DNA from: Halomicrobium urmianum
Lineage (GTDB): Archaea; Halobacteriota; Halobacteria; Halobacteriales; Haloarculaceae
DNA: 64,000 nucleotides
NCBI RefSeq assembly: GCF_020217425.1
Contig: NZ_CP084090.1
Span: 310,001-374,000, forward strand
Direction: 5' to 3'
Part shown: positions 20,904 through 42,197 of the stretch, one piece after another
Layout of the letters: every line of letters starts with the position of its first letter
Position numbering within the stretch: position 1 is the stretch's first letter
Notes under the pieces: model-generated
Seen by the model: only the letters and a program-made list of their open reading frames with translations
The model's database searches: none
What the model was told of the DNA's origin: nothing
Program-made: the position numbers and the translations under genes

Positions 20904-21026
20904 GGTAGGCGGCGAACCGGATTTCCCAGAGGTTCGCACACTCCAGTACTCGCCGGAACGCAGGCGGGCTTAACTTCCGTGTTCGGGATGGGTACGGGTG
21001 TTGCCCCGCCGCTATGGCCGCCTGAA
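20904..21026 (-). rRNA. rrf: 5S ribosomal RNA
   Basis: The minus strand reads a 123-nt archaeal 5S RNA with terminal helix GGCGGCC / GCCGCC-like ends, the conserved CCCGTACCCATCCCGAACAC loop region and CTCTGGGAAA near the 3' end. It is the last gene of the rRNA operon, separated from 23S by about 125 bases that contain one arm of the 23S processing stem. No distal tRNA-Cys is visible, unlike in many haloarchaea. Confidence 0.93.
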
Positions 21027-21082
21027 CGCCGATCCGCGGAATCGAACCGCGATGTGGTACGGACCACCATCGGTGGTAGATC

Positions 21083-21120
21083 ACCGTGTGTACGTGCAAT
21101 CCAAGTTCCGCCTGGACCCG
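21083..21120 (-). other. 23S pre-rRNA processing stem, 3' arm
   Basis: This arm is complementary to 24121-24156 across the 23S gene (shared core CCGTGTGTACGTGCAATCCA and CTGGACCCG, with a mismatched middle). In archaea such stems contain the bulge-helix-bulge cut by the splicing endonuclease. It brackets the mature 23S ends. Confidence 0.8.
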
Positions 21121-21151
21121 CTTCAACGGGTCAGTGCGTCCGGATGAGTGG

Positions 21152-24064
<2,913 letters not shown>

Positions 24065-24120
24065 TGATAGATTCGCTGTGATGAATCACAGCAATGTCGG
24101 ACACACGTTCCACGATGAAA

Positions 24121-24156
24121 CGGGTCCAGTTGACGTCTGGATTGCACGTACACACG
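24121..24156 (-). other. 23S pre-rRNA processing stem, 5' arm
   Basis: Partner of 21083-21120. It lies between the spacer tRNA-like gene and the start of 23S. Confidence 0.8.
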
Positions 24157-24265
24157 GCGTCATCGTACACTCCCGTGGTGAACGGGAGCGACGGTCTACC
24201 CTTCCCAGCCGCGCTTTCACGGGCTGGTGCATCGGTTCGCCTGACGGCGTCAGCCGCCGGCGGTA

Positions 24266-24334
24266 GTAGCCGACCCGGAATCGAACCGAGGTCGCCTCCG
24301 GAATGGAGGTGCTCTTCCACTGAGCTATCGGCCC
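24266..24334 (-). tRNA. Degenerate tRNA-like gene in the 16S-23S spacer
   Basis: It occupies the place of the usual haloarchaeal spacer tRNA-Ala. The D arm (GCTC/GAGC), T arm (CTCGG TTCGATT CCGGG) and six of seven acceptor pairs are good, but the first acceptor pair is G-A. The anticodon arm is a perfect 5-bp stem (CCTCC/GGAGG) with only a five-base loop ATTCC, two bases short of the universal seven. The whole is 69 nt. No anticodon can be assigned with confidence. It is either a tRNA pseudogene or a sequence error, and it may persist because it aids pre-rRNA processing. Confidence 0.55.
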
Positions 24335-24360
24335 GTCCCTCGAAGAGGGACGAACTGTAA

Positions 24361-24406
24361 AGCCCTGACAGTTCGGTGCCCGATCGGCGCGATCGGAGTG
24401 TCACCG
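24361..24406 (-). other. 16S pre-rRNA processing stem, 3' arm
   Basis: Complementary to 26003-26052 upstream of 16S, with matching blocks AGCCCTGA, AGTTCGGTG, CCCGATCGG and GTGTCACCG broken by short bulges. This is the archaeal bulge-helix-bulge processing stem for 16S. Confidence 0.85.
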
Positions 24407-24468
24407 GTGCCTGCCGCGAGGGCAGGACTTGCAGGTGGGCCTGGCCCGAAGGCCAGGTCCCGGTCAGT

Positions 24469-25939
<1,471 letters not shown>

Positions 25940-27159: not shown

Positions 27160-27234
27160 AGCCGGTGGAGGGATTTGAACCCTCGACCTAATCCTTACGA
27201 AGGATTCGCTCTAGCCAGTCTGAGCTACACCGGC
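27160..27234 (-). tRNA. tRNA-Thr (anticodon CGT)
   Basis: The minus strand from 27234 folds as a full cloverleaf: acceptor GCCGGTG/CACCGGC, discriminator U, D arm GCTC...GAGC, anticodon stem AATCC/GGATT with loop TTCGTAA (anticodon CGT), and T arm GAGGG TTCAAAT CCCTC. CCA is not encoded, as is usual in haloarchaea. It lies upstream of the rRNA promoters on the same strand. Confidence 0.95.
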
Positions 27235-27347: not shown

Positions 27348-28340
27348 TTAGCGAGTGAGTCGCACGTCCAGCACCACGTTCAGTTCGTGGGGGGCGTACG
27401 ACCGGACGGTGTGACGTGTCTCGACCGTCACGTCGTACTCGGGTTCCGCCGCTGCCCGGACCGCCCGCTCGCCGGGGCCGTAGGGGTCGTCCTCGTGCTG
27501 GATGTCGTAGTAGTGGAGCGTGCAGTCGTCGCCGGCCAGTCGGACGGCCGCGTCGAGGAACTCGTCAGCGCTGTGGGGCAGGTTCATCACCAGTCGGTCG
27601 GCCCAGTCCTCGTAGTCGTCGGCCACCTCCCTGACGTCCGCGTTGATGGCCGTGACTCGCTCCTCGACGCCGTTGCGGCGCGCGTTCTCCCGGAGGTACT
27701 TGACAGCCGCCTCGTTGACGTCGACGCCGACCGCCTCCGCGCCGCGCTTGGCGGCGGGAATGACGAAGGGTCCGACGCCGGCGAACATGTCGAAGGTCCG
27801 CTCGTTCTCCGCGACCTGCTCGACGACGCGGTGGCGCTCGGTCGCCAGCCGCGGCGAGAAGTACATCTCAGCGAGGTCGAGTGCGAACTCGCAGCCGTAC
27901 TCGCGGTGGACGACCTCCGTGGGGTTCGTCTCGTCCTCGGTGGCCAGCACCTCCCAGTCCCGGACGCGCGTCTCGCCCTTGACCTTCGAGGCGCGGTTCA
28001 GGACCGTCCGCGCCGGCAGGTCCGACGCCATGATCGCGTCGGCTAGCGCGCGCGCCCGCTCGGAGTCGTCCTCGTCGATCACGATCACGTCCCCGATGCG
28101 CTCGTAGGACGGTTCGAACGACACCTCGTCGGACGGCATCGTCTGCGTCTCGCGCGCGGGCGCGTCGTACTCCACGACGTCGAGGTCGGCGGGCACCTCG
28201 GCCGGGTCCGTCACCGGGAGGTAGATAGCCGCTTCGTCGACGACGATCTCGTAGCCCCCGGCCACCAGGTCCGCCTCGGCGAGGCGGCTTCGGGTCTCCT
28301 CGCCGGCCTCGCGCTCGACGCGCACGCAGGGAACGCCCAT
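27348..28340 (-). CDS. trm5: tRNA (guanine-37-N1)-methyltransferase Trm5
   Basis: A 330-residue class I SAM-dependent enzyme making m1G37 next to the anticodon, which prevents frameshifting. Visible features are the N-terminal domain (MGVPCVRVEREAGEETR), the RASKVKGETRVRDWEVLA segment, FSPRLATERHRV at about 190, the SAM motif FDMFAGVGPF at about 207-216, VDVNEAAVKYLREN, and the catalytic-type NLPHSADEFL. The length suits archaeal Trm5. The ATG at 28340 is used; an upstream extension overlaps the divergent dphB promoter. Confidence 0.93.
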   Translation of the reverse strand: MGVPCVRVEREAGEETRSRLAEADLVAGGYEIVVDEAAIYLPVTDPAEVPADLDVVEYDAPARETQTMPSDEVSFEPSYERIGDVIVIDEDDSERARALADAIMASDLPARTVLNRASKVKGETRVRDWEVLATEDETNPTEVVHREYGCEFALDLAEMYFSPRLATERHRVVEQVAENERTFDMFAGVGPFVIPAAKRGAEAVGVDVNEAAVKYLRENARRNGVEERVTAINADVREVADDYEDWADRLVMNLPHSADEFLDAAVRLAGDDCTLHYYDIQHEDDPYGPGERAVRAAAEPEYDVTVETRHTVRSYAPHELNVVLDVRLTR

Positions 28341-28415
28341 ACCTCGACTGGCCGGCGACCGGCGGTAAGCCTGACGCTTCGCGTCCTTTATGGCCCGCCG
28401 CCGTCCAGTGAGTCC

Positions 28416-29198
28416 ATGCTCACGTTCGTCGGGTTCGGGCTGTACGACGAGCGCTCGATCACCGTCGAGGGCAAGGAGGCCCTTCAGGCGGCCGACCGGG
28501 CGTTCGCGGAGTTCTACACGAGCCAGCTCGTCGGTACCGACCACCAGCGGCTGGAGTATTACCTCGGTACCGACCTCGAAGTGCTCGACCGGGAGACAGT
28601 CGAACAGGACCCCGAACGCGTCCTCGCAGCGGCGGAAGAGGAGGACGTCGTCTTCGCCACCGCCGGCGACACGATGGTGTCGACGACCCACGTCGACCTC
28701 CGCCTCCGCGCGCGCGAGCGGGGGATCCACACCAGAGTCGTCCACGGGACGACCGCCCAGACCGCCGCCTCCTCGCTGACCGGACTCCAGAACTACCGCT
28801 TCGGAAAGGCCACCACGCTGCCCTTCGAGGCCGCCCACGGCGCCGACGGCGTCCCCGACAGCGTCGTCGAGACAATCGAGGCCAACCGCGAGCGCGACCT
28901 CCACACGCTGGTCTACCTGGACATCAAGGTCGACGACCCCCACTGGGAGGGCGAGGAGGAGTTCATGACCGCCGACCGCGCCGCCGACCTCCTGCGCGAA
29001 CCGCTGGGCGATCCCCTGGGCGTCGTCGTCGCCCGCGCCGGCAGCGCGACGCCGGTCGTCGAGGCCGACAGGCTCTCCGAGCTCGCCGACGACGACTTCG
29101 GCGGCCCACTACACCTGCTCGTCGTCCCGGGCGACCTCCACGACATGGAGCGAGACGCACTGAGAGAACTGGCCGGCGCGCCGGAAGACGCGCTGTAG
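28416..29198 (+). CDS. dphB: Diphthine synthase DphB
   Basis: A 260-residue SAM-dependent methyltransferase (tetrapyrrole-methylase fold) that methylates the modified histidine of elongation factor 2 in diphthamide synthesis. The start MLTFVGFGLYDERSITVEG, then DVVFATAGDTMVSTTHVDL, HGTTAQTAASSLTGLQNYRFG and LDIKVDD are family hallmarks. A TATA-like CCTTTATGG lies about 28 bases before the ATG, so the transcript is probably leaderless. It is divergent from trm5. Confidence 0.95.
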   Translation: MLTFVGFGLYDERSITVEGKEALQAADRAFAEFYTSQLVGTDHQRLEYYLGTDLEVLDRETVEQDPERVLAAAEEEDVVFATAGDTMVSTTHVDLRLRARERGIHTRVVHGTTAQTAASSLTGLQNYRFGKATTLPFEAAHGADGVPDSVVETIEANRERDLHTLVYLDIKVDDPHWEGEEEFMTADRAADLLREPLGDPLGVVVARAGSATPVVEADRLSELADDDFGGPLHLLVVPGDLHDMERDALRELAGAPEDAL

Positions 29199-29199
29199 T

Positions 29200-30177
29200 T
29201 CACTCCTCGCCGCCGTCGGCCCGGACCGTCGACGACCCGAGCGCCCCTTCGAGGTCGTACTCGCTCCCGGTCAGCAGGTACAGCAGGTCCTCGATGGGCG
29301 TCACGACCTCCGGGAGCTCCCGGACGACCAGCCAGGTGATGGCGACCAGCGCGATCACCGACCCGAACTGCGCCAGCAGGCGGTCCGCGATGTAGTAGGA
29401 GACCATCTGCTCGTCGGTCGTCCCGAAGACGGACGTCACCAGTCCCGGGAACCACTGCATCCGCTGCTGGCCGAAGGCCGTCGCGATGAAGACGTTCCTG
29501 ACGAGGTTCAGTCCGTAGATCACGGGAATCGAGACCGCCAGGGCCCGTAGCTTCCGGCGGAGCGGCGCGCGAACGGCCAGGATGGCGCCACCCAGTATCG
29601 CCATGCTCCCGATCCCCGTGCAGGCGACGATGATCGTGTACGTGATCGGTCGCTCGTTCCCGGGGAACACGAACGTGCTGCGGTAGGTGTAGTCGACCCC
29701 CCGGTCCTGGCCGAAGTACTCCACGCCCCGGACCATCTCCGGGTCGACGCCGATAGCGTTCAGCAGGAGGTGCGTCTGCGCGGCGACCGTCTCCACCAGG
29801 AACCGGCGGGCCGGATTGGCCTCCAGAAACGGTACGTAGGCGAACGGGAGGTAGATCAGTCCCATGATCCCGATAGCGCGCGTCAGCACGAACAGCGAGT
29901 CCCGGCCGTTCCACAGTCGATACCCCGCGTACGCGGACAGCGGCGCGGCCAGCACGCTCCCGATCCCCTCCACGATCGACTTCTGCTCCAGGACGAAGTG
30001 GGGCACCAGGACCAGCCAGAAGAGGCCGAAGAGCAACCAGGCGCCGACGGCGACGCCGCGCGCCCGGTCCTCGTCGCGCCGCTCCAGCAGCGCCGCCGCC
30101 AGAAACGCTCCGACGACGATCCACGACAGCGGCCGCGCGATAGCGAGCGGCGCCGCGGTCAAACCCTCGGCCGTCAT
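29200..30177 (-). CDS. artA: Archaeosortase A
   Basis: A 325-residue polytopic membrane transpeptidase-like enzyme that removes the PGF-CTERM tail of surface proteins and links them to an archaeal lipid. Eight or so hydrophobic segments are visible. The catalytic Cys186 (ACTGIGS), Arg227 (NLVRNVF) and Arg266 (YYIADR) keep the same spacing as Cys173, Arg214 and Arg253 of Haloferax ArtA. The next three genes upstream on this strand encode PGF-CTERM S-layer glycoproteins, its expected substrates. Confidence 0.95.
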   Translation of the reverse strand: MTAEGLTAAPLAIARPLSWIVVGAFLAAALLERRDEDRARGVAVGAWLLFGLFWLVLVPHFVLEQKSIVEGIGSVLAAPLSAYAGYRLWNGRDSLFVLTRAIGIMGLIYLPFAYVPFLEANPARRFLVETVAAQTHLLLNAIGVDPEMVRGVEYFGQDRGVDYTYRSTFVFPGNERPITYTIIVACTGIGSMAILGGAILAVRAPLRRKLRALAVSIPVIYGLNLVRNVFIATAFGQQRMQWFPGLVTSVFGTTDEQMVSYYIADRLLAQFGSVIALVAITWLVVRELPEVVTPIEDLLYLLTGSEYDLEGALGSSTVRADGGEE

Positions 30178-30309
30178 GCTCTGGCCGTGCCTTGGCCGAT
30201 GGTCGGCATATGCTTTCCCATCCGTGCAGAACCGGAACGGTGCGTCCGATCGGCAACGCGTCGCGAGTGAGGGTGAACAGTGCGGCCGCTACTCGGTGGA
30301 GCGGGCCAA

Positions 30310-30346
30310 GAAAAAGCGAACGTCGAAGACCGGACGAGGTCCGGTT
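30310..30346 (-). terminator. Hairpin and T tract after S-layer gene 1
   Basis: On the minus strand an ACCGGAC/GTCCGGT hairpin (30329-30345) is followed by a TTTTT run, about 90 bases after the stop of the first S-layer gene. It is duplicated after S-layer gene 2 at about 33872-33910. Confidence 0.6.
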
Positions 30347-30437
30347 CAGTCGGGACCGGAAGCAGTGGCGCACTCGATGGGCGTCCACCGTCCATCATGA
30401 TGCGAACCGGTTCGATGCCGACTGTGGTTAGCGGGCG

Positions 30438-33338
30438 TTAGTTGTCGCGGCGGACCGCGAGCAGCGCAGCAGCGACCAGCGCGACCAGCGCGAGGACGGC
30501 CGTGAAGCCGGGGCCCTCACCGGTGGTCGTCTCGGTCGGCGTCTCGTCGCCGCCGTTACCAGGCGTCGCGGTCTCGGTCGGAGTCGCCGTCTCCGTCTCC
30601 GTCGGGGTCGGCGTGCCTTCCGTCGGCGTCTCCGTCGTCTCGTTGCCGCCAGCGTCACCGACAGTGACCTCGGCGCTGTCCGTCACCGGTTCGCCGTCCT
30701 CGGTGTACGGAGCGTCCGTGTCGCTGCCGTTGAAGTCGAACTCCTCGTTGCCGTTGGTGTCCATGTGCGGCATGGCCACGAGGGTTGCGCTCTCGTTGAG
30801 CTCCTCGTCGAGGGTGACCTCGACGTCCTCCTGGCTGCCGGATTCGAGGTAGTCGCTGACGCCGACGACCGAACCGCTGGCGTTGTCAGCGTGGATGGCG
30901 ATGAAGCCACCGGCACCCAGGTCAGCGGAGTCGACCGTGACCGTGGAGCCGTCGGACTCCTGATCGCTGAAGGTCACGTTGGCGCCTGCGGCCTCGGTGA
31001 CCTGTCCGTCGATGGAGTCACCGATCGAGTCACCATTGATGCGGGCCTGGGCCGTGAAGTTCGTGTCGGGGTTCACGTCGCTGAAGTCACCTTCGACCGT
31101 GAAGGTGCCGTTCTCCGTGACTTCCGTCTCCGGAGTCAGCTGGAACGGCTCGTCCGTGTCCGTCGACCGCATGCGGACAGTCACTTCCGTGCCCGGCGCA
31201 ACGGAGGTTTCGCCGGTGACCTGCTGACCGGCCTGGGCGCGCACCGTCACGTCGTCGCCGTCGTTGAGCGTAGCGTCACGCTCGACGATCTCGTAGGAGT
31301 TCTCCATCGACTCGTCGTCGTCGGACAGCTGGCTGTCGTCTTCGTCGATCGAGAAGTTGGCAGTCAGCTCGTCACCGTCCTCGAGGTCGTTACCGTTGAG
31401 CTGAATCTCGTCAGTGTCCACCGCGAGGAAGTACGTGTTGTTCGCGGGGTCCGGGATGAGCTCACTGGCGTCCAGAAGGTTGTCCACGTTGTCCGGATCG
31501 GCGTTCGGACCGGGATCGCCCTCCTCGAGCGTGAACTCGAACTGGCTGTTATCGTCGTTGGCTTCGTTGATCAGAGAGGAAGCCTGATCGCTGCCACCGC
31601 TGGCGTTGAGGACGCCCTCGATGCCGCTGACCTCGATGGCGTGGATCGCGTAGTCCTCCTGAGCGACCTCGTTGGTCTGGGTCAGGTTGGAACCGATCCG
31701 TGCGTGGATGTCAGCTGCATCGACGTCACTGAAGTCGTCACCGCTCGGTGCCGTCCAGATGCTCAGCGTCCCGGTGCTGCGCTCCTGGAGCGAGAGTCCA
31801 CCGACTGCGTCGGGATCGCTGTACTCGTCGCGGTCCTCGTCACCCAGCTGGTAGGCACCAGCCGTGACGTTCATGTCGTAGTCCGCGACCGCGAGGAGGT
31901 CGTCGGACGGGTCGGTGTTGTCCTCAGTGAAGTCACCAGACTGCTGCTCGAGCGAAACATCGTCGTCGCTGTCCATGGCGGTGGCGATGACGTCACTGCT
32001 CACGTCAGATGCGCCGGCCGCGTAGGAGTTGAACAGGACGGTGGCTTCGCCGTCGTCGTCGCCGTCCTCGACGTGGACGTTGGCGATGTAGTTCTGGTCC
32101 TCGCTACCGATGAGCAGCGTCGCCTCGTCGGTGTTGGAGAACTCGACCGGGATGCGAGCGACATCACCGATCTCCTCGGTCACGAAGCCGTCACCGGCGA
32201 AGGTGACCTCTTCGTCGCCGGCTTCTGAGACCTCGATCGTGTCGGTCTCGGTGACAATACCGGTGTCGTCGTGTTCGACCTCGATCGTGTAGTTACCGGT
32301 GCCGTAGTCTTCGTCCTCGGCGGCCGGGAAGCTGACCTCGGCCTCACCCGTCCCGTCGAGGGTCGTGGTGAACTCCTGATCCTCACCGTCACTCTCGACG
32401 ACGTCACCGTCGCTGTCGAGCAGGCGGTAGGTGATGTCAGTACTCGAGGCGGCCGCGCTGACCTGAGCCTCGATCTCGTCCGACTCCGTAATCGATGTGT
32501 CCGAGGCGTTCGCGGTCAGGTCCAGACCGGTGACGCGGAGGGGATCGACCTCGTTAGTGCCGTCACCACCGATGCTGACGACGTACGACTCACCGGAGTC
32601 GAGTCCGGAGGTGTCGTAGTCGAGAGCCTCGTCCAGATTACCGGCGTCGAGACTGCGGACGCTAGTGCCGCGGTTGTTGCCGTCGTCCGTATCCCGCTCG
32701 TAGATCTGGATGGACGTGTCACCGTCCGTGTCCTCATCAGTGACGAACCGGAGCGTCTCGCCGCGGTAGACCGTCAGGTCCTCGTTCGTCTGGTCAGCAG
32801 AGATGACGGCGCCCTCACGCACGTCCGTCAGGATGCGGTATTCGACGTTGGCGCTGTAGTCACCGTCGACCTGCTCGAACTCGTGGGTCGCAGAGGCTTC
32901 AGACTCGGCGTCCGTCGTGTCCCACTGAAGTTGGAGTTCGGCTTCTCCACTTTCGGTAACCGTGAACTCGACCTCGTCGTCGTCGAAGTCATTCACCTCT
33001 CCATCGCCGGTCGCTTGTACGAGGGCAGCATTGTCGAGTTCGAGGCCTGCGTCTTCGGCGTCACTGGTATCAACAGTGAACGTCGCCGAATCAGCGCCGT
33101 CCAGATTGACGGTGAACCCGATTTGCTGCGTCACTGTGCCATCTTCCTGATCCTGATACGCGTCGATCGACTCGATGTTATCAGACGCGCTTGACAACTC
33201 CTCGTCGAACTGAAGGATGTCGTCGTTGGCTGTCTGCGCAGCGGCTGCTCCACTGAGCGACACACCCATGGCCACGACGGACGTGACCATCAGGGCCGCG
33301 AGGAACAGGCTGCGAAGTTTGTCGGTAGTTCCTGTCAT
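30438..33338 (-). CDS. csg: S-layer glycoprotein 1 (PGF-CTERM)
   Basis: A 966-residue major cell-surface glycoprotein. It has a haloarchaeal surface-glycoprotein signal (MTGTTDKLRSLFLAALMV..., cleavage near residue 34), a long very acidic ectodomain with many N-x-S/T sites, a DUF7282-like domain at about 786-894 (FSDQESDGSTVTVDSADLG...MPHMDTNGNE), a Thr/Pro/Glu stalk at about 896-941, then GPGF and a terminal helix ending RRDN. The tail is a PGF-CTERM signal for ArtA. The ATG at 33338 is set by the signal peptide and by the overlap with an upstream ORF. It is closely related to the two following genes. Confidence 0.95.
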   Translation of the reverse strand: MTGTTDKLRSLFLAALMVTSVVAMGVSLSGAAAAQTANDDILQFDEELSSASDNIESIDAYQDQEDGTVTQQIGFTVNLDGADSATFTVDTSDAEDAGLELDNAALVQATGDGEVNDFDDDEVEFTVTESGEAELQLQWDTTDAESEASATHEFEQVDGDYSANVEYRILTDVREGAVISADQTNEDLTVYRGETLRFVTDEDTDGDTSIQIYERDTDDGNNRGTSVRSLDAGNLDEALDYDTSGLDSGESYVVSIGGDGTNEVDPLRVTGLDLTANASDTSITESDEIEAQVSAAASSTDITYRLLDSDGDVVESDGEDQEFTTTLDGTGEAEVSFPAAEDEDYGTGNYTIEVEHDDTGIVTETDTIEVSEAGDEEVTFAGDGFVTEEIGDVARIPVEFSNTDEATLLIGSEDQNYIANVHVEDGDDDGEATVLFNSYAAGASDVSSDVIATAMDSDDDVSLEQQSGDFTEDNTDPSDDLLAVADYDMNVTAGAYQLGDEDRDEYSDPDAVGGLSLQERSTGTLSIWTAPSGDDFSDVDAADIHARIGSNLTQTNEVAQEDYAIHAIEVSGIEGVLNASGGSDQASSLINEANDDNSQFEFTLEEGDPGPNADPDNVDNLLDASELIPDPANNTYFLAVDTDEIQLNGNDLEDGDELTANFSIDEDDSQLSDDDESMENSYEIVERDATLNDGDDVTVRAQAGQQVTGETSVAPGTEVTVRMRSTDTDEPFQLTPETEVTENGTFTVEGDFSDVNPDTNFTAQARINGDSIGDSIDGQVTEAAGANVTFSDQESDGSTVTVDSADLGAGGFIAIHADNASGSVVGVSDYLESGSQEDVEVTLDEELNESATLVAMPHMDTNGNEEFDFNGSDTDAPYTEDGEPVTDSAEVTVGDAGGNETTETPTEGTPTPTETETATPTETATPGNGGDETPTETTTGEGPGFTAVLALVALVAAALLAVRRDN

Positions 33339-33442
33339 AGTTTGTTGGATCGCTTCGGCGGCGCCAGCGACTTTCCCCCTGTCCGGACGCGACCACCGCA
33401 GTCGCGTACAGACCGAACCGGCGTACTCGTTGCTGACACCAT
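33335..33442 (-). CDS. Upstream ORF in S-layer gene 1 leader
   Basis: A 35-codon ORF starting MVSATSTPVRSVRDCGG and ending SNKL. Its TGA overlaps the S-layer ATG (ATGA). The ATG sits roughly 10-13 bases after the expected transcription start, so it should be the first start codon met. The same ORF occurs before S-layer genes 2 and 3. Whether the peptide matters or only its translation is unknown. Confidence 0.55.
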   Translation of the reverse strand: MVSATSTPVRSVRDCGGRVRTGGKSLAPPKRSNKL

Positions 33443-33473
33443 GGGTAGGGGTACGATTGAGAGGTCTGGTGGG

Positions 33474-33494
33474 TGTTATAAGTGTTTTGTGGTT
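33474..33494 (-). promoter_or_regulatory. S-layer gene 1 promoter
   Basis: The minus strand reads CCACAAAACACTTATAAC: a TATA box preceded by a CCACAAA element shared by all three S-layer promoters. Confidence 0.7.
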
Positions 33495-34001
33495 TAACAG
33501 TCTGATTGACATGCATCGACAAACCCTGAGGCTGTGGATTACACCAATATTAGGCTAGGGGCCGAAACAATTTACAGAGGTAGATATCGCAGACATCAGC
33601 GTTCAGTTTGCAAGTATCGACGTCACTGCTAAATTCCAGGCCACCAGCCAGTACTAGAATCTGCCAGTGGTATAATCGACAGAGAACGTTGTTCGAGAAC
33701 TGATTCGGCCGATGCAGTGAGCGACACGCCGTAGGCACTATGGAAACAGTAGTCGCTTCACAATCTGAAGCGCCACGGCTCGACCGCCTGAAGGGAGCCG
33801 TCGAAGATCGACGAGAAGCAGCTCGAGTCGTCGAACGACGCCATTGCCGCTGCTATCAGACGTAGCGCACCAAAAGAAAGCGAACGTCGAAGACCGGACG
33901 AAGTCCGGTTCAGTCGGGATCGGAAGCAGTGGCGCACTCGATGGGCGTCCGTCTCCCATCGCGGTGCGAACCGGTTCGATGCCGACTGTGGTTAGCGGGC
34001 G
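33495..34001. other. Intergenic region between S-layer genes 1 and 2
   Basis: AT-richer spacer without a recognised gene from about 33500 to 33870. From about 33870 to 34005 it is a near copy of 30306-30440, the 3' flank of S-layer gene 1, including the terminator-like hairpin at 33893-33910. Confidence 0.7.
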
Positions 34002-36656
34002 TTAGTTGTCGCGGCGGACCGCGAGCAGCGCAGCAGCGACCAGCGCGACCAGTGCGAGGACGGCCGTGAAGCCGGGACCCTCGCCCTCGGTCGGCGTCGG
34101 CGTCTCGTCGCCGCCGTCGCCGCCTTCGGTCGCGGTCGGCGTGGCCGTCTCAGTCGGCGTGGCCGTCTCAGTCGGCGTGGCCGTCTCGTTCGTCTCAGTC
34201 GGCGTGGCCGTCTCGTTCGTCTCAGTCGGCGTGGCCGTCTCCGTCTCGTTCGTCGCCGTCTCGTTCGCTTCGAGGACCTGACCGTCGACGGAGTCGCCGA
34301 GCGAGTCACCGTCGATGCGGGTCTGGGCCGTGAAGTTCGTACCGGGGTTCACGTCACTGAAGTCACCTTCGACCATGAAGGTGCCGTTCTCCGTGACTTC
34401 CGTCTCCGGAGTCAGCTGGAACGGCTCGTCCGTGTCCGTCGAGCGGATGCGGACAGTGACCTCAGAGCCGGGTGCGACCGAGGTCTCGCCGGTAATCTGC
34501 TGACCGTCCTGCGCACGAACGGTCACGTCCTCGTCGTCGTTGATCGAGGCGTCGCGCTCGACGACCTCGTAGCCGTTTTCGACCGACTCGAAGTCCTCGG
34601 CCAGTTCACTGTCGTCAGTGACCGAGAAGTTCGCGGTCAGCTCGTCGCCGTCCTCCAGGCCACCATTACCGAATCCGGCCGCCCCGGTGTCGACGACAAC
34701 GAAGTAAGTGTCGTTCACGGGGTCCGAAATCAGGTTAGTGTTGGAGGAGTTGAGTTCGACGCTAGCCGGGTCGGCGTTCGGACCAGGGTCAGCCTGCTCG
34801 ACAGTGAGGTTGAACTGGTCGTGGTAGGCATTATTGTCCTCGCGGTCGATGATGGAATCGACGTCATCGTTGCCTTCAGTGGCATTGAGGACGCCCTCGA
34901 TGCCGCTGGCCTCGATAGCGTGGACAACGTAGTCGTCAGCTGCGACCTCGTTGGTCTGGGTCAGGTTGGAGCCGATCCGCGCGTGGACGTCAGCGGCTTC
35001 GAGGTCGCTGTAGTCGTCCGCGTCAGGACCCGTCCAGATGCTGACCTGATCCGTGCTACGTTCCTGAAGGGAGAGCCCACCGACCGCGTCGGGATCGGTG
35101 TACTCGTCGTCATCGGACAGGGTATAGGTCCCAGCCGTGACGTTCATGTCGTAGTCCGCAACAGCCAGGAGATTGTTCTCCGGACCAGTTTCACCTTCCT
35201 CTACGCCCTCAATATCCGTACTATCGTGGACGAAGTCACCCCGCTGTTCGTCAAGGGTGACCTCGTCATCACTATCGAGGGTCTCAACGATGGCGTCCGA
35301 GTTCGACCCAGCCGCGTAGGAGTTGAACAGGACGGTGGCTTCGCCGTCGTCGTCGCCGTCCTCGACGTGGACGTTGGCGATGTAGTTCTGGTCCTCGCTA
35401 CCGATGAGCAGCGTCGCCTCGTCGGTGTTGGAGAACTCGACCGGGATGCGAGCGACGTCACCGATCTCCTCGGTCACGAAGCCATCACCGGCGAAGGTGG
35501 CTTCCTCGTCGCCGGCTTCGGAGACTTCGATCGTGTCGGTCTGAGCGGTAATGCTGGTGTCGTCGTGTTCGACCTCGATCGTGTAGTTACCGGTGCCGTA
35601 GTCTTCGTCCTCGGCGGCCGGGAAGCTGACCTCGGCCTCACCCGTCCCGTCGAGGGACGTGGTGAACTCCTGGTCCTGACCGTTGCTCTCGACGACGTCA
35701 CCGTCGCTGTCGAGCAGACGGTAGGTGATGTCCGTACTCGAGGCAGCTGCGCTGACCTGGGCCTCGATCTCGTCCGACTCCGTGACCGACGTGTCCGAGG
35801 CGTTCGCGGTCAGGTCCAGACCGGTGACGCGGAGAGGGTTAACTTCGTTGCTGTCGTCGCTACCGATAGCCACGACGTAGTTCGTACCAGTGTCCAGGTT
35901 CGACGTACTGAAGTCGATGGCGTTGTCCAGATCGCCACCAGCATCGAGCGTGCGCACGGTGGTCCCGCGCTCATTGGTACTGTCGTCCGTGTCCCGCTCG
36001 TAGATCGAGACCTCCGTATCGGTCCCGTCAGTCACGAACCGGAGCGTCTCGCCGTGGTAGACCGTCAGGTCACGAGCGCCATCCGTGTCGTCGTCGTACG
36101 AGATAACGGCAGCGTCATCACGCACGTCGGAGAGGATCCGGTAGTTAACGTCGGCCGTGTACGGGGCGTCGTCCCCATCACCGCTGGCCTCGAACTCGTG
36201 CGTGGCCTGCGCGTCGGACTCCGCGTCCGACACGTCGTAGGAGATGGTGAGCGTAACCTCCTCGTTGTCGACGTCACCCTCGAGATCAACCTCAATCTCA
36301 TCGTCACTCACGTCAGTGACGGTAGCGGCGTCCGAGTTAGCCGAAATCTCGGTTCCCTCTTCAAGGATCTCTAGACCAGCGTCCTCAGCATCAGACGTGT
36401 CGATGGTGAGGGTCTCGCTGGTGCCGTCACTCGTGTCGACATTGAATGAGATCGTCTGGGTGTCTCTACTGTTTTCCGAGTCGCTCGGATCCTGTGCGTC
36501 GACTGCAGTTACACTATCGGGAACGCTATAGATGGTATCGTTCCCTGAATCAGTGTTGTCCGCTGCTGCTGCTCCACTGAATCCGATGGCCACAACCGAC
36601 ATGACCATCAGAGCCGTGAGGAACAGGCTGCGGAGTTTCGCGTTAGTTCCTGTCAT
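34002..36656 (-). CDS. S-layer glycoprotein 2 (PGF-CTERM, lacks DUF7282 domain)
   Basis: An 884-residue paralogue with the same signal (MTGTNAKLRSLFLTALMV), acidic N-glycosylation-rich ectodomain, stalk and PGF-CTERM tail (EGEGPGFTAVLALVALV...RRDN). Unlike genes 1 and 3, it passes directly from the SLGDSVDGQVLEANE region into an ET/NETATPTE repeat stalk of about 60 residues, without the DUF7282-like domain. Its middle is nearly identical to gene 1 at DNA level (146 identical bases at 35311-35456), while its N-terminal 200 residues are diverged. The start is again set by ATGA overlap with an upstream ORF. Confidence 0.94.
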   Translation of the reverse strand: MTGTNAKLRSLFLTALMVMSVVAIGFSGAAAADNTDSGNDTIYSVPDSVTAVDAQDPSDSENSRDTQTISFNVDTSDGTSETLTIDTSDAEDAGLEILEEGTEISANSDAATVTDVSDDEIEVDLEGDVDNEEVTLTISYDVSDAESDAQATHEFEASGDGDDAPYTADVNYRILSDVRDDAAVISYDDDTDGARDLTVYHGETLRFVTDGTDTEVSIYERDTDDSTNERGTTVRTLDAGGDLDNAIDFSTSNLDTGTNYVVAIGSDDSNEVNPLRVTGLDLTANASDTSVTESDEIEAQVSAAASSTDITYRLLDSDGDVVESNGQDQEFTTSLDGTGEAEVSFPAAEDEDYGTGNYTIEVEHDDTSITAQTDTIEVSEAGDEEATFAGDGFVTEEIGDVARIPVEFSNTDEATLLIGSEDQNYIANVHVEDGDDDGEATVLFNSYAAGSNSDAIVETLDSDDEVTLDEQRGDFVHDSTDIEGVEEGETGPENNLLAVADYDMNVTAGTYTLSDDDEYTDPDAVGGLSLQERSTDQVSIWTGPDADDYSDLEAADVHARIGSNLTQTNEVAADDYVVHAIEASGIEGVLNATEGNDDVDSIIDREDNNAYHDQFNLTVEQADPGPNADPASVELNSSNTNLISDPVNDTYFVVVDTGAAGFGNGGLEDGDELTANFSVTDDSELAEDFESVENGYEVVERDASINDDEDVTVRAQDGQQITGETSVAPGSEVTVRIRSTDTDEPFQLTPETEVTENGTFMVEGDFSDVNPGTNFTAQTRIDGDSLGDSVDGQVLEANETATNETETATPTETNETATPTETNETATPTETATPTETATPTATEGGDGGDETPTPTEGEGPGFTAVLALVALVAAALLAVRRDN

Positions 36657-36760
36657 AGTTTGTTGGATCGCTTCGGCGGCGCCAGCGACTTTCCCCCTGT
36701 CCGGACGCGACCACCGCGGTCGCGTACAGACCAGACCGGCGTACTCGTTGCTGACACCAT
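36653..36760 (-). CDS. Upstream ORF in S-layer gene 2 leader
   Basis: 35 codons, MVSATSTPVWSVRDRGG to SNKL, nearly identical to the gene 1 copy. The TGA overlaps the S-layer ATG, and the start lies about 10 bases after the predicted transcription start. Confidence 0.55.
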   Translation of the reverse strand: MVSATSTPVWSVRDRGGRVRTGGKSLAPPKRSNKL

Positions 36761-36790
36761 GGGTAGGGGTACACTTGTGAGGTATGACCA

Positions 36791-36811
36791 TCTATATAAA
36801 TGCTTTGTGGT
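36791..36811 (-). promoter_or_regulatory. S-layer gene 2 promoter
   Basis: The minus strand reads CCACAAAGCATTTATATAGA: the shared CCACAAA element and a strong TATA box. Confidence 0.7.
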
Positions 36812-37151
36812 CCATTATGTAGATTGAGAAATCAGTTCGGGGAGAAGGATTGTATTTCACGCTCTGTACTGCGTGAGAAACAGCCCCTATGGGAGGAATA
36901 GTTGTATCGCTAACAATAAAGAAGAGTATATAAATGATAGCCAGTTCACACGACTGGGGTCGACTGGTGTGTGGAAAAAGCAGTTACTCGGTGTACCATC
37001 ATCAGGGGCTCTACGCGTCGAGGACTGGCGTACCGAATGCAGTGATTCGCCACGGACGCGTGTGCCTGGCTCGTGGATTGATCGAAGGTCCGCATACGCG
37101 CGTTTAAAATAAGTAATCGAAGACCGGTCAAAAACCGGTAGTGAGCGAGCG
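36812..37151. other. Intergenic region between S-layer genes 2 and 3
   Basis: AT-rich spacer with no recognised gene. An ACCGGT/ACCGGT hairpin (37123-37139) near the end of gene 3 is probably its terminator. Confidence 0.6.
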
Positions 37152-40100
37152 TTAATCGTCGCGGCGGACCGCGAGCAGCGCAGCAGCGACGAGTGCGACC
37201 AGTGCGAGCACGGCCGTAAAGCCGGGGCCCTCACCTTCCGTGGTGGCGGTCGGCGTGTCGCCGCCGGTGTCGTCCTCGGGCGTCGGCGTGGCCGTCGGAG
37301 TCACCGTCTCCGTCTCCTCAGGAGTGGCGGTCGCCGTCGGCGTCGCCGTCTCCGTGCCGGTGTCGCCGACAGTGATCTCGGCGCTGTCCGTCACCGGCAC
37401 ACCGCTTTCGGTGTACGGAGCGTCGGTGTCACTGCCGTTGTAGTCGAACGCCTCGTCGTCGTTCGTGTCCATGTGCGGCATGGCCACGAGGGTGGCGCTC
37501 TCGTCGAGCTCCTCGTCGAGGGAGATCTCGACGTCTTGCTGACTACCGGATTCGAGGTAGTCGCTGACGCCGACGATGTCGCCGCTAGCGTCACCAGCGT
37601 GGACGGCGATGAAGCCACCGGTACCCAGGTTTGCCGAGTCCACCGTGACAGTGGAACCGTCGGACTCCTGGTCGCTGAAGGTTACGTCAGCGCCCTCGGC
37701 CTCACGGACGACGCCGTCGACGGAGTCGCCGGTTTCGTCACCGTTGACGCGGGTCTGGGCCGTGAAGTTAGTGCCGGGGTTCACGTCGCTGAAGTCGCCT
37801 CCGACCGTGAAGGTGCCGTCTTCGTCGACCTCCGTCTCGGGAGTCAGCTGGAACGGCTCGTCGGTGTCCGTCGAGCGGATGCGGACGGTGACCTCGGAGC
37901 CGGGCGCGACCGACGTCTCGCCGGAGATCTGCTGACCGGACTGCGCACGGACGGTCACGTCGTCGCCGTCGTTGAGCGTGGCGTCGCGTTCGACGGTCTC
38001 GTAGTCGGCGTAGACCATCTCGGAGTCGTCATCGGAGAGGACGCTCTGACCGCGCACCGTGAAGTTCGCGGTCAATTCGTCGCCATCAGTGACGTCACCA
38101 GTGGGTTCCGAGTTGCCACCCCACTTGTTGGCGTCCACGTACTCGAGTTCCTCCATGTCGACCGCGACGTAGTACGTGTCATTCTCAGGATCCGAGACGA
38201 GGTAACTATTGCCCTCGTGTAGGTTAATTCGGTCAGCATCGGCGTTCGGACCGGGATCGGCCTGCTCGATCTTGAAGTGGACCTGATAATCGGCGTTGTC
38301 GTAAAGTAGCGATCTCACATCGTCGCTACCACGGGCGACTTCGAGAGCGCCCTCGATACCGGTAGCCTCGATAGCGTGGACAGCATAGTCCCCTTCGGCG
38401 ACTTCGTCAGTTTGAGTGAGGTTGGAACCGATCCTTACGTTGATATCCTCGGTCTCAAGGTCACTGTAGTCGTCACCGTCGGGACTAATCCAGAGACTGA
38501 CCTGATCGGTGCTACGCTCCTGCAGCGATAGGCCGCCGACTGCGTCCGGATCGGTGTACTCGTCGTCATCGGACAGGGAGTAGGTCCCCGCCGTGACGTT
38601 CATATCGTAGTCCGCAACGGCGAGCAGATTACCCGACGGAGCCTTCGTACCGGTGTAGGGATCGTAGTTAGCCGTAGGATAGTTTTCGCGGAAATCACCT
38701 GTCTGTGTCTGGAGCGAGGCCTCGTCGTCATCAGCCTCTGCCTCGACGATGTTGTACTGGTCAGACTGGTCGGCACCAGCGGCGTAGGAGTTGAACAGGA
38801 CGGTAACTTCACCGTCGTCGTCGCCGTCCTCGACGTGGACGTTGGCGATGTAGTTCTGGTCCTCGCTACCGATGACCAGCGTCGCCTCGTCGGTGTTGGA
38901 CAGTTCGACCGGGATGCGAGCGACGTCACCAACCTCCTCGGTCACGAAGCCGTTGCCCGCGAAGGTGGCTTCCTCGTCGCCGGCTTCGGTGACTTCGATC
39001 GTGTCGGTCTGAGCCGTGATGCCGGTACTGGTGTCCTCGACCTCGATGGTGTAGTTACCGGTACCGAGGTCCTCGTCAGCGGCCGGGTTGAAGCTGATCT
39101 CAGCTGCACCGGACCCGTCGTAGGTCTCGGTGAATTCGGCGTCGTCGCCATTCGCGAGTTCGACGACGTCACCGTCGCTGTTGAGCAGACGGTAGGTGAA
39201 CTCCTCGTTGGGCGCGTCGGCGCTGACGTCCGCCTCGAACTCGTCCTCAGTGGTGATGGACGTGTCAGTCGCATTCGCGCTCAGGCCGAGCTCGGTGACC
39301 CGCAGCGGGTTGACCTCGTTCGTTACACCATCGCTGTCCTCGTTGATGGCGACGACGTACTTCTGACCGGTGTCGAGCTGCGACGTGTCGAAGTCGATGG
39401 CGTCCGCGAGCGTCCCCGTGTTCAGGGACTTGACGCGGGTGCCACGAGTGTCGTCGCTATCGTACTCGAAGATCTCGATCTGGACGTTGTCGTACTGGGT
39501 GCTCTGAGTATCAGCACTGTGCTCGAACCGAACGGTCTCACCGTGGAAGACCGTCTGGTCGTAGGTGTTGCCCGACTTGAAGATGGCGTCACTGCGGACA
39601 TCCTGCAGGATGCGGTAATCGACTTCCGCAGTGTACGGGGTGTCGTCTGCATCACCAGTTGCGGTGACCTCGTGGGTCGCACTGGCGTCGGACTCGGCGT
39701 TATCGACGTTATCGTACTTGATCTGGGGGACGAAGTAGCCACCCTTGACGCCACCATCAACGCTGACTGAGAGGACGACTTCCTCGTCGTCTGCTTCTTC
39801 GACGGTAACGTCGGACTTGAAGAGACCCTCGCCGGCTCCGATGATTTCAACTGAGTCGGTGCCGGAGATTTCCAGTCCGGCATCAGCCGCGTCAGAGGTA
39901 TCGATGGTGATAGTTTCGGTTTCACCATCCTCCAGATATATGCCAGCAATGGCGAAGGAGTGTGAGTCTGTACTACCGGCCTCTCCGTCCACCGGAGTTG
40001 CGTCTGTAGCAGCACTGATAGTACCGTAAGTACCAGTGTCGTTTGCCACGTCCGCGGCTGCTGCTCCAGTGAACGAGACGCCGACGGCCACGACGGACGT

Positions 40101-40154
40101 GACCATCAGGGCTGTCAGGAACAGGCTGCGGAGCTTGTCGTTGGTGTCTGTCAT
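37152..40154 (-). CDS. S-layer glycoprotein 3 (PGF-CTERM)
   Basis: A 1000-residue paralogue, the most diverged of the three. It has the signal MTDTNDKLRSLFLTALMV, an acidic ectodomain, a DUF7282-like domain at about 822-930, a short Thr/Pro/Glu stalk and the PGF-CTERM tail ending RRDD. Conserved blocks with genes 1 and 2 include FAGNGFVTEEVGDVARIPVE and EDQNYIANVHVEDGDDDGE. It has its own promoter and upstream ORF, so it need not be cotranscribed with the others. Confidence 0.95.
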   Translation of the reverse strand: MTDTNDKLRSLFLTALMVTSVVAVGVSFTGAAAADVANDTGTYGTISAATDATPVDGEAGSTDSHSFAIAGIYLEDGETETITIDTSDAADAGLEISGTDSVEIIGAGEGLFKSDVTVEEADDEEVVLSVSVDGGVKGGYFVPQIKYDNVDNAESDASATHEVTATGDADDTPYTAEVDYRILQDVRSDAIFKSGNTYDQTVFHGETVRFEHSADTQSTQYDNVQIEIFEYDSDDTRGTRVKSLNTGTLADAIDFDTSQLDTGQKYVVAINEDSDGVTNEVNPLRVTELGLSANATDTSITTEDEFEADVSADAPNEEFTYRLLNSDGDVVELANGDDAEFTETYDGSGAAEISFNPAADEDLGTGNYTIEVEDTSTGITAQTDTIEVTEAGDEEATFAGNGFVTEEVGDVARIPVELSNTDEATLVIGSEDQNYIANVHVEDGDDDGEVTVLFNSYAAGADQSDQYNIVEAEADDDEASLQTQTGDFRENYPTANYDPYTGTKAPSGNLLAVADYDMNVTAGTYSLSDDDEYTDPDAVGGLSLQERSTDQVSLWISPDGDDYSDLETEDINVRIGSNLTQTDEVAEGDYAVHAIEATGIEGALEVARGSDDVRSLLYDNADYQVHFKIEQADPGPNADADRINLHEGNSYLVSDPENDTYYVAVDMEELEYVDANKWGGNSEPTGDVTDGDELTANFTVRGQSVLSDDDSEMVYADYETVERDATLNDGDDVTVRAQSGQQISGETSVAPGSEVTVRIRSTDTDEPFQLTPETEVDEDGTFTVGGDFSDVNPGTNFTAQTRVNGDETGDSVDGVVREAEGADVTFSDQESDGSTVTVDSANLGTGGFIAVHAGDASGDIVGVSDYLESGSQQDVEISLDEELDESATLVAMPHMDTNDDEAFDYNGSDTDAPYTESGVPVTDSAEITVGDTGTETATPTATATPEETETVTPTATPTPEDDTGGDTPTATTEGEGPGFTAVLALVALVAAALLAVRRDD

Positions 40155-40261
40155 AGTTTGGTGTTGTGCCGCATCTGCGGTGCCAGCGACTTTCTCCCTT
40201 CCCAGACGCGACCGTCATGGCCGCGCACAGACCGAATCAGCGTACTCGTTGCTGACACCAT
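40151..40261 (-). CDS. Upstream ORF in S-layer gene 3 leader
   Basis: 36 codons, starting MVSATSTLIRSVRGHDG and ending NTKL. It is one codon longer than the other two copies, so the length change kept the frame. The TGA overlaps the S-layer ATG. The nucleotide sequence is clearly diverged from copies 1 and 2 in its second half. Confidence 0.55.
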   Translation of the reverse strand: MVSATSTLIRSVRGHDGRVWEGRKSLAPQMRHNTKL

Positions 40262-40291
40262 GGGTAGGGGTACGCCTGATAGATACTGATG

Positions 40292-40311
40292 TCTATATAA
40301 ATTGTTTGTGG
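40292..40311 (-). promoter_or_regulatory. S-layer gene 3 promoter
   Basis: The minus strand reads CCACAAACAATTTATATAGA: the same CCACAAA plus TATA layout as genes 1 and 2. Confidence 0.7.
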
Positions 40312-40572
40312 CTATTATGTGATGTGAAAACCCCCGTTCGTCCTGAAAAGTAGTAGTTTAGACCACAAGATGCGAGAAAATCAGTCCTGCCAAACTGTTG
40401 TTCATTCAATAATAGCATAGGCCATAGATTTAAAGTGGCGCTGTCTCTACAGGATTGGGAATATCATCACTAGTGCACTGGGTACCTCCACGGTAGCCTC
40501 CTCATGCTGGCGGCGTTACCGGCACCCGGTTACAGCGTCCACTAACTCACTGACGCGGTGAGAACGATACGG

Positions 40573-40647
40573 GCTGTCCCGAAACAGACCTGCTCGAACG
40601 TGAAACTGAACGCCAGTTCAGCAACCAGTCTTGCTCGAGGGGACAGC
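40573..40647. mobile_element. MITE-like element with GCTGTCCC ends
   Basis: About 75 bases with 8-base terminal inverted repeats (GCTGTCCC at 40573-40580, GGGACAGC at 40640-40647), an internal CTGAAC/GTTCAG hairpin and two TGCTCGA copies. It lies in an AT-rich gene-free gap (40312-40656). The ends resemble IS5-type termini, but the parent element is not identified. Confidence 0.45.
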
Positions 40648-40656
40648 AATCAGAAC

Positions 40657-41091
40657 TCACTCCGGCGCTCCGACTATCGCCCGCAACGCCGGCCACTCGT
40701 ACCACCAGACGACGGCGAACAGCGCCACCGCTCCGACGGGGACGGCGTACCGCCCGGGTTGCCGAGAGAACCCCCAGGCGAAGGACAGTTGCGTCAGCCC
40801 GGCGAGGACGAGCAGCCCGGCCGTGATGCGATGGTCCTCGCGGCCGGTCAGGTGCCCGACGGCGGCGCTGGCCAGGGCGCCGAGGTACAGGCAGACGCCG
40901 ACGGGCCACGCCAGGAGGTACTCCGGGAGCCCACGCGTATACGCGAAGACATAGTGGTAGAGCGTCGTCAGCGAGAAGGGGTCTGGATCGACCAGTCCGA
41001 AGGCGAACACCAGAGTCGCTTCGCCTCCGGAGACGACCAGCGACCAGGGAAGGAGGCCGACCGCGGCGAGGGCGGCCAGCCTGCGAGTCAT
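40657..41091 (-). CDS. TIGR04206-like membrane protein
   Basis: A 144-residue protein with four or five hydrophobic helices. LLPWSLVVSGGEATLVFAFGL, YTRGLPEYLLAWPVGVCLY and VGAVALFAVVWWYEWPAL match a haloarchaeal family recalled as TIGR04206. The ATG overlaps the stop of the upstream GTPase gene (ATGA at 41088-41091), so the pair is coupled. The function is unknown. Confidence 0.8.
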   Translation of the reverse strand: MTRRLAALAAVGLLPWSLVVSGGEATLVFAFGLVDPDPFSLTTLYHYVFAYTRGLPEYLLAWPVGVCLYLGALASAAVGHLTGREDHRITAGLLVLAGLTQLSFAWGFSRQPGRYAVPVGAVALFAVVWWYEWPALRAIVGAPE

Positions 41092-42197
41092 TCCGTCAGA
41101 ATGCGCAGCACGTCCTCGTCGGCCAGTTCGTGGTCGCGGCCGACCTGCTGCTCGTCGTGCTTGGCGCTGGGGCCGGAGACGCGGGCGAATCGGAACCGCT
41201 CCTCGAAGTCGCCGCCGAGCTTCTCGCAGGCGTCGTCGACGGTCTGGCCCTCTCGGAGGATCAGCGGCTCCTCGTAGTCGACGCCGCGGCCGGGCTTGTC
41301 CATGTAGATCCGGATCAGGCCCAGTTCGTCCCAGATCCGCTCCCTGAGCGCGTCGAGGCCCTTCTCCTCCTCGGCGCTGATGAACACGGCGTCCTCGGGG
41401 TCGACGCCGTACTCGCGCAGCTGCTCGTCGACGGTCTCCTTGTAGTCGGGCTCGATGAGGTCGGCCTTGTTGACGGCGACGGCGGAGGGGAGGTACTCGC
41501 GGTTGTCCATCACGCCGTCGATCAGGCGGTCGATGTCGACGTGCTCGCCGACGGTGACGTCGGCGTTGACGTAGCCGTGCTCGCGGAGGACGGACTTGAT
41601 CGTCTCCTCGTCGAGGTCCAGATCGACGCTGGCGTTGACGGAGATGCCGTCCTTGGCCTTCCGGCGGACGGAGATCCGCGGAGGCTCCTGGTCGATCCTG
41701 ACCTTGTTCTCGTACAGCTCCGTGCTGAGCCGCTCGTACTGGTCGATCTCGAACACGGAGAGGACGAACACGACGAGGTCGGCCGTCCGGACCACGGAGA
41801 GGACGGCCTGGCCGTCGCCCTTGCCGCTGGCGGCGCCCTCGATCAGCCCGGGGACGTCGAGCATCTGGATGTTGGCGCCCCGGTACTGGAGCATGCCGGG
41901 GTTGACGTCCAGCGTGGTGAACTCGTAGGCGCCCGTCTCGCTGTCGGCGTTGGTGAGGGCGTTCAGGAGCGTCGACTTCCCGACGCTGGGGAACCCGACC
42001 AGCGCCACCGTGGCGTCGCCGTGCTTCTCGACGGCGTAGCCGCCGCTCCCGCCGGACGAGGACTGGCGTTTCTCGAGTTCCTCCTTCTTCTCCGCGAGCT
42101 TGGACTTCAGCCGGCCGATGTGCGCCTCCGTCGACTTGTTGTAGGGCGTCTCGGCGATCTCCTCTTCGAGCTCGCGGATCTCCTCTTCGAGCCCCAT
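41088..42197 (-). CDS. DRG-type GTP-binding protein with TGS domain
   Basis: A 369-residue OBG/DRG-family GTPase. The N-terminal coiled helix (LEEEIRELEEEIAETPYNK) precedes the G domain with G1 GFPSVGKST at about 67-75, G3 DVPGLIEGA, and G4 NKAD at about 242-245. The C-terminal TGS domain (IRIYMDKPGRGVDYEEPLIL to the end) is complete. Archaeal DRG proteins associate with ribosomes or translation factors. The start at 42197 agrees with the family N terminus. Confidence 0.95.
   Translation of the reverse strand: MGLEEEIRELEEEIAETPYNKSTEAHIGRLKSKLAEKKEELEKRQSSSGGSGGYAVEKHGDATVALVGFPSVGKSTLLNALTNADSETGAYEFTTLDVNPGMLQYRGANIQMLDVPGLIEGAASGKGDGQAVLSVVRTADLVVFVLSVFEIDQYERLSTELYENKVRIDQEPPRISVRRKAKDGISVNASVDLDLDEETIKSVLREHGYVNADVTVGEHVDIDRLIDGVMDNREYLPSAVAVNKADLIEPDYKETVDEQLREYGVDPEDAVFISAEEEKGLDALRERIWDELGLIRIYMDKPGRGVDYEEPLILREGQTVDDACEKLGGDFEERFRFARVSGPSAKHDEQQVGRDHELADEDVLRILTE

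Follow-up and report, generated by a model that had tools for sequence, protein, structure and literature searches.

The window analysed here, a stretch of 64,000 nucleotides from Halomicrobium urmianum, carries three S-layer glycoprotein genes in tandem together with artA, the gene for archaeosortase A (ArtA), all on the minus strand. Read along that strand the order is S3, S2, S1 and artA, with artA last in the direction of transcription. S3 (37152-40154, 1000 aa) and S1 (30438-33338), the copy nearest artA, each combine a DUF7282 domain with a PGF-CTERM sorting domain, S2 (34002-36656) has PGF-CTERM and no DUF7282, and artA (29200-30177) encodes a protein of 325 aa. The long open reading frames of S1 and S2 extend further, to 33512 and 36791, and take in the leader that precedes each gene; the true starts, 33338 and 36656, were set by the match to the signal peptide. 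An initial annotation of this DNA had artA followed by the S-layer genes, of which the adjacency stands and the direction is reversed, artA lying downstream of them.

Ahead of each S-layer gene, on the same strand, is a leader of about 120 nt, found at 40155-40273 for S3 (119 nt), at 36657-36772 for S2 (116 nt) and at 33339-33454 for S1 (116 nt). A BRE/TATA promoter of the CCACAAA...TTATA-like form precedes each leader, at 40293-40311 (S3), 36793-36810 (S2) and 33475-33492 (S1), with the TATA box starting 29 nt before the leader begins. The boxes, which we read directly from the sequence, differ from one another, and each paralogue does have the promoter of its own that had been attributed to it.

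The protein assignments are equally direct. ArtA matches TIGR04125 with an E-value of 1.7e-108 and 362.2 bits (curated cut-off 75) over model positions 1-270 of 271, and the active site previously called intact, Cys186, Arg227 and Arg266, can be read directly in its sequence. When 88 ArtA-like proteins from 81 loci are aligned, the cysteine and the first arginine are present in all 88 and the second arginine in 79, being missing from the other nine; in several relatives (L113, L114, L119, L120, L141-L143) two artA-like genes stand in tandem, about 1-2 kb apart. S1, S2 and S3 each score above the cut-offs for the TIGR04207 signal, the BGTF domain NF045517 and the PGF-CTERM model TIGR04126, which confirms the tandem set of three PGF-CTERM paralogues; TIGR04126 finds nine proteins in the genome, and these are its three top scores. 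By their sorting domain they are predicted substrates of ArtA. In signal, BGTF domain, PGF-CTERM and adjacent ArtA the locus resembles the haloarchaeal csg genes (HVO_2072 family, TIGR04216 / NF041335) and their sortase, but it has three tandem copies, and its proteins match NF041335, the model for ArtA-dependent S-layer glycoproteins, at E <= 1e-78 and 266-303 bits, far under the curated cut-off of 1100, which is passed by none of the 146 genomes of the family.

The strand that carries artA also has, about 2-8 kb downstream of that gene, a complete rRNA operon (16S, tRNA, 23S, 5S; 20904-25939) and a further tRNA (27160-27234). The end of dph5, for diphthine synthase (28416-29198, plus strand), adjoins the end of artA in convergent orientation, with a Trm5-type tRNA methyltransferase gene (27348-28943, minus strand) beyond it. 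Two COX1-type proteins are encoded towards the edges of the window, at 459-2744 (minus strand) and 60225-62018 (plus strand); one is nitric-oxide-reductase-like, with a NorB cytochrome domain, and the other is an ordinary oxidase subunit I.

Synteny and history of the S-layer copies

We found artA in 139 of the 146 family genomes, and took up to 20 kb around it from 80 of them, two of these pieces being shortened by contig ends. In 59 of these 80 loci, and in 11 of 15 genera, a csg homologue on the strand of artA ends no more than 400 nt upstream of it. The initial annotation held such closeness of enzyme and substrate to be uncommon, a view that these counts do not support; it would have called the arrangement ordinary if every relative shared it, and 59 syntenic loci among 80 come close to that. 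A further 40 csg stretches, drawn in 36 cases from other families, have artA close by in 15. Counting the csg homologues near artA in all 81 loci, the window included, there are none in 17, one in 46, two in 17 and three in the window only, and within the genus Haloarcula two csg genes stand ahead of artA in 13 of 29 loci. The synteny of artA and csg is thus ordinary and tandem pairs are common, while a triplet is seen once in 81 loci. A congener, G064, has csg copies at two contig ends, a pair on one (G064:C1, L216) and a single one on the other (G064:C3, L074), which may be a tandem array broken in assembly, possibly also of three copies. More than one S-layer gene is described, in passages of PMC8640222 and PMC9943897, for Haloarcula hispanica (csg1/csg2) and for other two-S-layer strains. 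The H. hispanica set is a pair, whereas the window holds a triplet from a separate, lineage-specific expansion. This array goes only modestly beyond the tandem pairs and two-S-layer strains already known.

The three copies form a single clade (SH-aLRT 100), and its sister group consists of the lone csg genes of three congeners. A central block of 64 aa is 92-100% identical between the copies and only about 50% identical to sister species in the genus, and within it the third codon positions at conserved residues are 86-94% identical between copies. S1 and S2 also share an identical run of 146 nt, while the N-terminal regions of the three are only 52-66% identical. Judged from the sequences, the pattern is that of a centre subject to gene conversion and a diverging N-terminus: recombination between the copies would homogenise the central part, and the N-terminal part, which is probably exposed, would be left to diverge. 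One account of such an array is dosage and recombination, in which unequal crossing-over gave rise to the copies, and they increase the output of S-layer protein and act as donors for one another in gene conversion. The monophyly of the triplet, its homogenised central block with the 146-nt run, and the csg pairs in 17 of 81 loci all speak for it, but N-terminal domains that have fallen to 52-66% identity imply that the copies are more than dosage duplicates. We regard this account, which is compatible with the explanation favoured below, as a serious contender that stops somewhat short of probable.

The earlier reading of the triplet was that of a switchable or condition-specific coat, with the paralogues used in alternation by way of promoters that differ, as might happen when viruses attack or salinity changes. 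The promoters do differ even though the leaders are conserved, which makes condition-specific use possible, and the N-terminal identity between the copies is low. Strains with two S-layers and S-layer virus receptors have been published, and according to parts of PMC10544981 and PMC9973310 escape from viruses can depend on a second S-layer protein, so that the idea is reasonable and not new in kind. However, a search of 29000-41200 gave no long near-perfect inverted repeat, and a Pfam scan of 20 large ORFs on the flanks gave no recombinase, for which reason we reject an invertible switch. Promoter and leader have been kept intact in every copy, so all three look expressible. Nor is the N-terminal divergence special to the array, since the single-copy orthologues of the congeners diverge just as strongly there (46% identity, against 87% later in the protein), and no switching is needed to account for it. 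Alternate coats therefore seem to us an unlikely use of the three copies.

The leader and its structure

The leader begins with a near-invariant 5' tail, GUACCCCUACC, which is followed by a hairpin and then by an A-rich stretch that leads to the AUG. A covariance model built from 15 sequences (R1) finds exactly three leaders genome-wide, each belonging to one of the S-layer copies, with 109.7 bits (E 1.3e-24) for S3, where the match at 40152-40273 takes in the ATG, 128.1 bits (E 2.4e-29) for S2 and 127.3 bits (E 4e-29) for S1. In the 81 artA loci the same model finds 73 leaders, a 74th match being the reverse strand of a hairpin (E 0.41). Three alignments were used, of 15 of 66 sequences (A1), of 49 of 73 (A3) and of 34, one per genus (A6).

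The pairing of the hairpin is kept through change. In A1, aligned with MAFFT only, 11 of the 23 pairs have changed on both sides with pairing retained, and the alignment reaches a covariation score of 0.371, compared with 0.241 when shuffled (0 of 500 shuffles reach it) and a slid maximum of 0.171. Across the 34 genera of A6, also aligned with MAFFT only, the score of the basal stem is 0.344, compared with 0.207 when shuffled (again 0 of 500) and a slid maximum of 0.170, and 8 of its 11 pairs show two-sided changes. RNAalifold, unprompted, returns six pairs of the same basal stem, and alignments fitted to the model, which are biased toward it, agree with the covariation. What speaks against the structure is that single sequences fold only modestly below dinucleotide shuffles in energy (mean z -0.98, n=67 leaders), although the basal stem is present in 61 of the 67 minimum-free-energy folds. 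Within the stem an internal loop has AGUA on one side in 32 of 34 genera and GAA on the other in 28 of 34, the tail is nearly invariant, the TATA box stands 28-30 nt ahead of the leader in 102 of 111 cases, and conservation runs on to the start codon.

The 67 folded leaders derive from 83 csg genes in the 81 loci, of which 12 have no leader by text pattern. Among those 12, L074 is cut by a contig end, L146 has a broken or misassigned start and a leader that the model finds, and in L080 and L089 the leader stands before the preceding gene. From the 71 genes positive by pattern, three were skipped (two for N runs, one for a misassigned start), which left 67 distinct sequences; one of these, from L140, goes undetected by the model and is unlikely to be a leader.

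A conserved stretch at a fixed distance from a TATA box could in principle be a promoter or start-site element that acts as DNA, and the unpaired, near-invariant 5' tail would suit that role. It would leave unexplained the compensatory changes between far-apart arms of the stem, which appear in alignments made with MAFFT only, and the conservation that reaches the start codon, and we consider it highly improbable. The start-proximal tail may nonetheless have some role as DNA. What the comparison shows, at the level of sequence, is a conserved element of RNA that is specific to the S-layer genes of haloarchaea. It opens with the single-stranded 5' tail, continues in a basal stem whose pairs covary, an internal loop of AGUA/GAA and an apical stem that varies, and ends in an unpaired, A-rich run up to the AUG.

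In sequence the loop bears a likeness to the bulged-G (loop E) motif of the sarcin-ricin loop, whose consensus we take to have AGUA opposite GAA, as 28 of 34 genera have here; the loop of the leader differs in sitting in an mRNA leader.

Occurrence across the order

A second covariance model (R2), built from 49 matches and applied to the whole order under strict filters, finds the leader in 195 of 392 genomes and 52 of 95 genera, about half of the genomes having no match under those filters. We examined 45 downstream proteins, 42 among the R2 matches listed and three added, with four of the 42 and two of the three belonging to the family of the window. The TIGR04207 signal is present in 44 of these proteins, PGF-CTERM in 37 and BGTF in 34; the eight that have no PGF-CTERM are four cut sequences (by contig end, N run or stretch end) and four that end in another type of tail. 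In a sample of the phylum 15 of 196 genomes match, 14 of them within the order, and the lone outsider, a marginal match of 60 nt (E 0.0028), is taken as chance. Four plasmid-borne BGTF homologues, examined out of 32 matching records, have no leader, and no IMG/VR stretch has the exact leader pattern. Rfam 15 gives no match at E <= 1 on 36600-36850 and none at the leaders within 20000-46000.

Some S-layer genes do without the leader: those of one genus (g4, five of five), one of the two copies in G053 and in G055, and G091. The leader is thus not needed everywhere. In L116 and L117 the artA-distal, shorter S-layer paralogue (571-578 aa) has no leader and the artA-proximal copy has one. In two loci of the genus Haloarcula the leader stands ahead of a large gene (L080:6518-10231 and L089:8422-13176) that is the direct upstream neighbour of the csg homologue next to artA; the product of this gene has the signal and, as judged by eye, a dockerin-like tail, and no PGF-CTERM. 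Duplicated leader fragments flank an N ahead of both csg copies in L075 (G007), probably an assembly artefact of repeated leaders.

A proposed role for the leader

The leader also has an upstream AUG of its own, 12 nt in from where it begins, and might act through the short reading frame opened there, for example by termination and reinitiation where its stop overlaps the csg start as ATGA. Such an overlap exists in all three copies in the window and in 13 of 42 other loci. The upstream AUG is missing, however, in 9 of the 42 loci and changed in 6 of 34 genera, the frame ends before csg in the genus Haloarcula, and third codon positions, compared by eye and not by computation, are no freer than first ones. 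Since the AUG is lost in several loci and genera, a peptide or a coupling role is not the common denominator, and we hold this mechanism to be quite improbable. A conserved peptide as such is likewise not favoured, because the frames shift between relatives as well. What the leaders do have in common is the tail, the stem, the loop and the unpaired approach to the AUG.

In archaeal promoters the distance from the TATA box places the start of the transcript, and with the box 28-30 nt before the leader this would put the first base of the message at the first base of the leader. From there, we propose, the leader acts in cis on the S-layer mRNA, protecting its 5' end, aiding efficient ribosome loading, or both. 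The AUG would be presented in an unpaired approach, the stability or translation of the mRNA would be set, and the outcome would be the very high output that an S-layer requires. In a Haloferax volcanii data set csg has the top transcript level after rRNA depletion, as given in part of PMC10448506, and a cis-acting role in 5' protection would suit so abundant a message. Each copy in the window would then be a complete expression unit of TATA promoter, leader RNA and coding sequence, and the three might be co-expressed or might differ in level through their diverged promoters. As a whole, the explanation that we favour, and judge to be probable rather than secure, is that of an ordinary artA-linked S-layer locus in which tandem triplication has given three copies of the S-layer gene, all of them headed by a cis-acting RNA that sets the stability or translation of its mRNA.

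More tentatively, the leader could be a sensor of S-layer supply or of the state of the envelope, with a protein that binds the AGUA/GAA loop and the 5' tail and so tunes how stable, or how well translated, one of the most abundant messages of the cell is, for all paralogues together across the order; this we offer as a possibility only, doubtful as it stands. Were it true, all S-layer paralogues of a cell would be under joint control throughout the order. Pairing of the 5' tail with rRNA was considered and rejected, the longest perfect complement in the rRNA operon of the window being 8 nt, which falls midway among 200 random controls.

The surface of haloarchaea consists mainly of S-layer proteins, and the control of their output is poorly known. 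A leader RNA in 52 of 95 sampled genera would give a testable handle on that control in genetically tractable species, and it is a candidate RNA family for a domain with few known cis-acting RNAs. A description of the leader was not found in the open literature, and a conserved, covarying leader structure across the order appears to be undescribed; older papers on the cloning of csg genes may have noted a long leader. Bacterial S-layer mRNAs are reported to have long leaders that stabilise the message, and they share with the window the combination of a highly abundant message for a surface protein and a leader of some length; the window differs in being archaeal and in its covarying stem with the AGUA/GAA loop, and a relation in sequence is not expected. 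The presence of the leader ahead of so many csg genes also suggests that vectors built on a csg promoter may carry an RNA element too.
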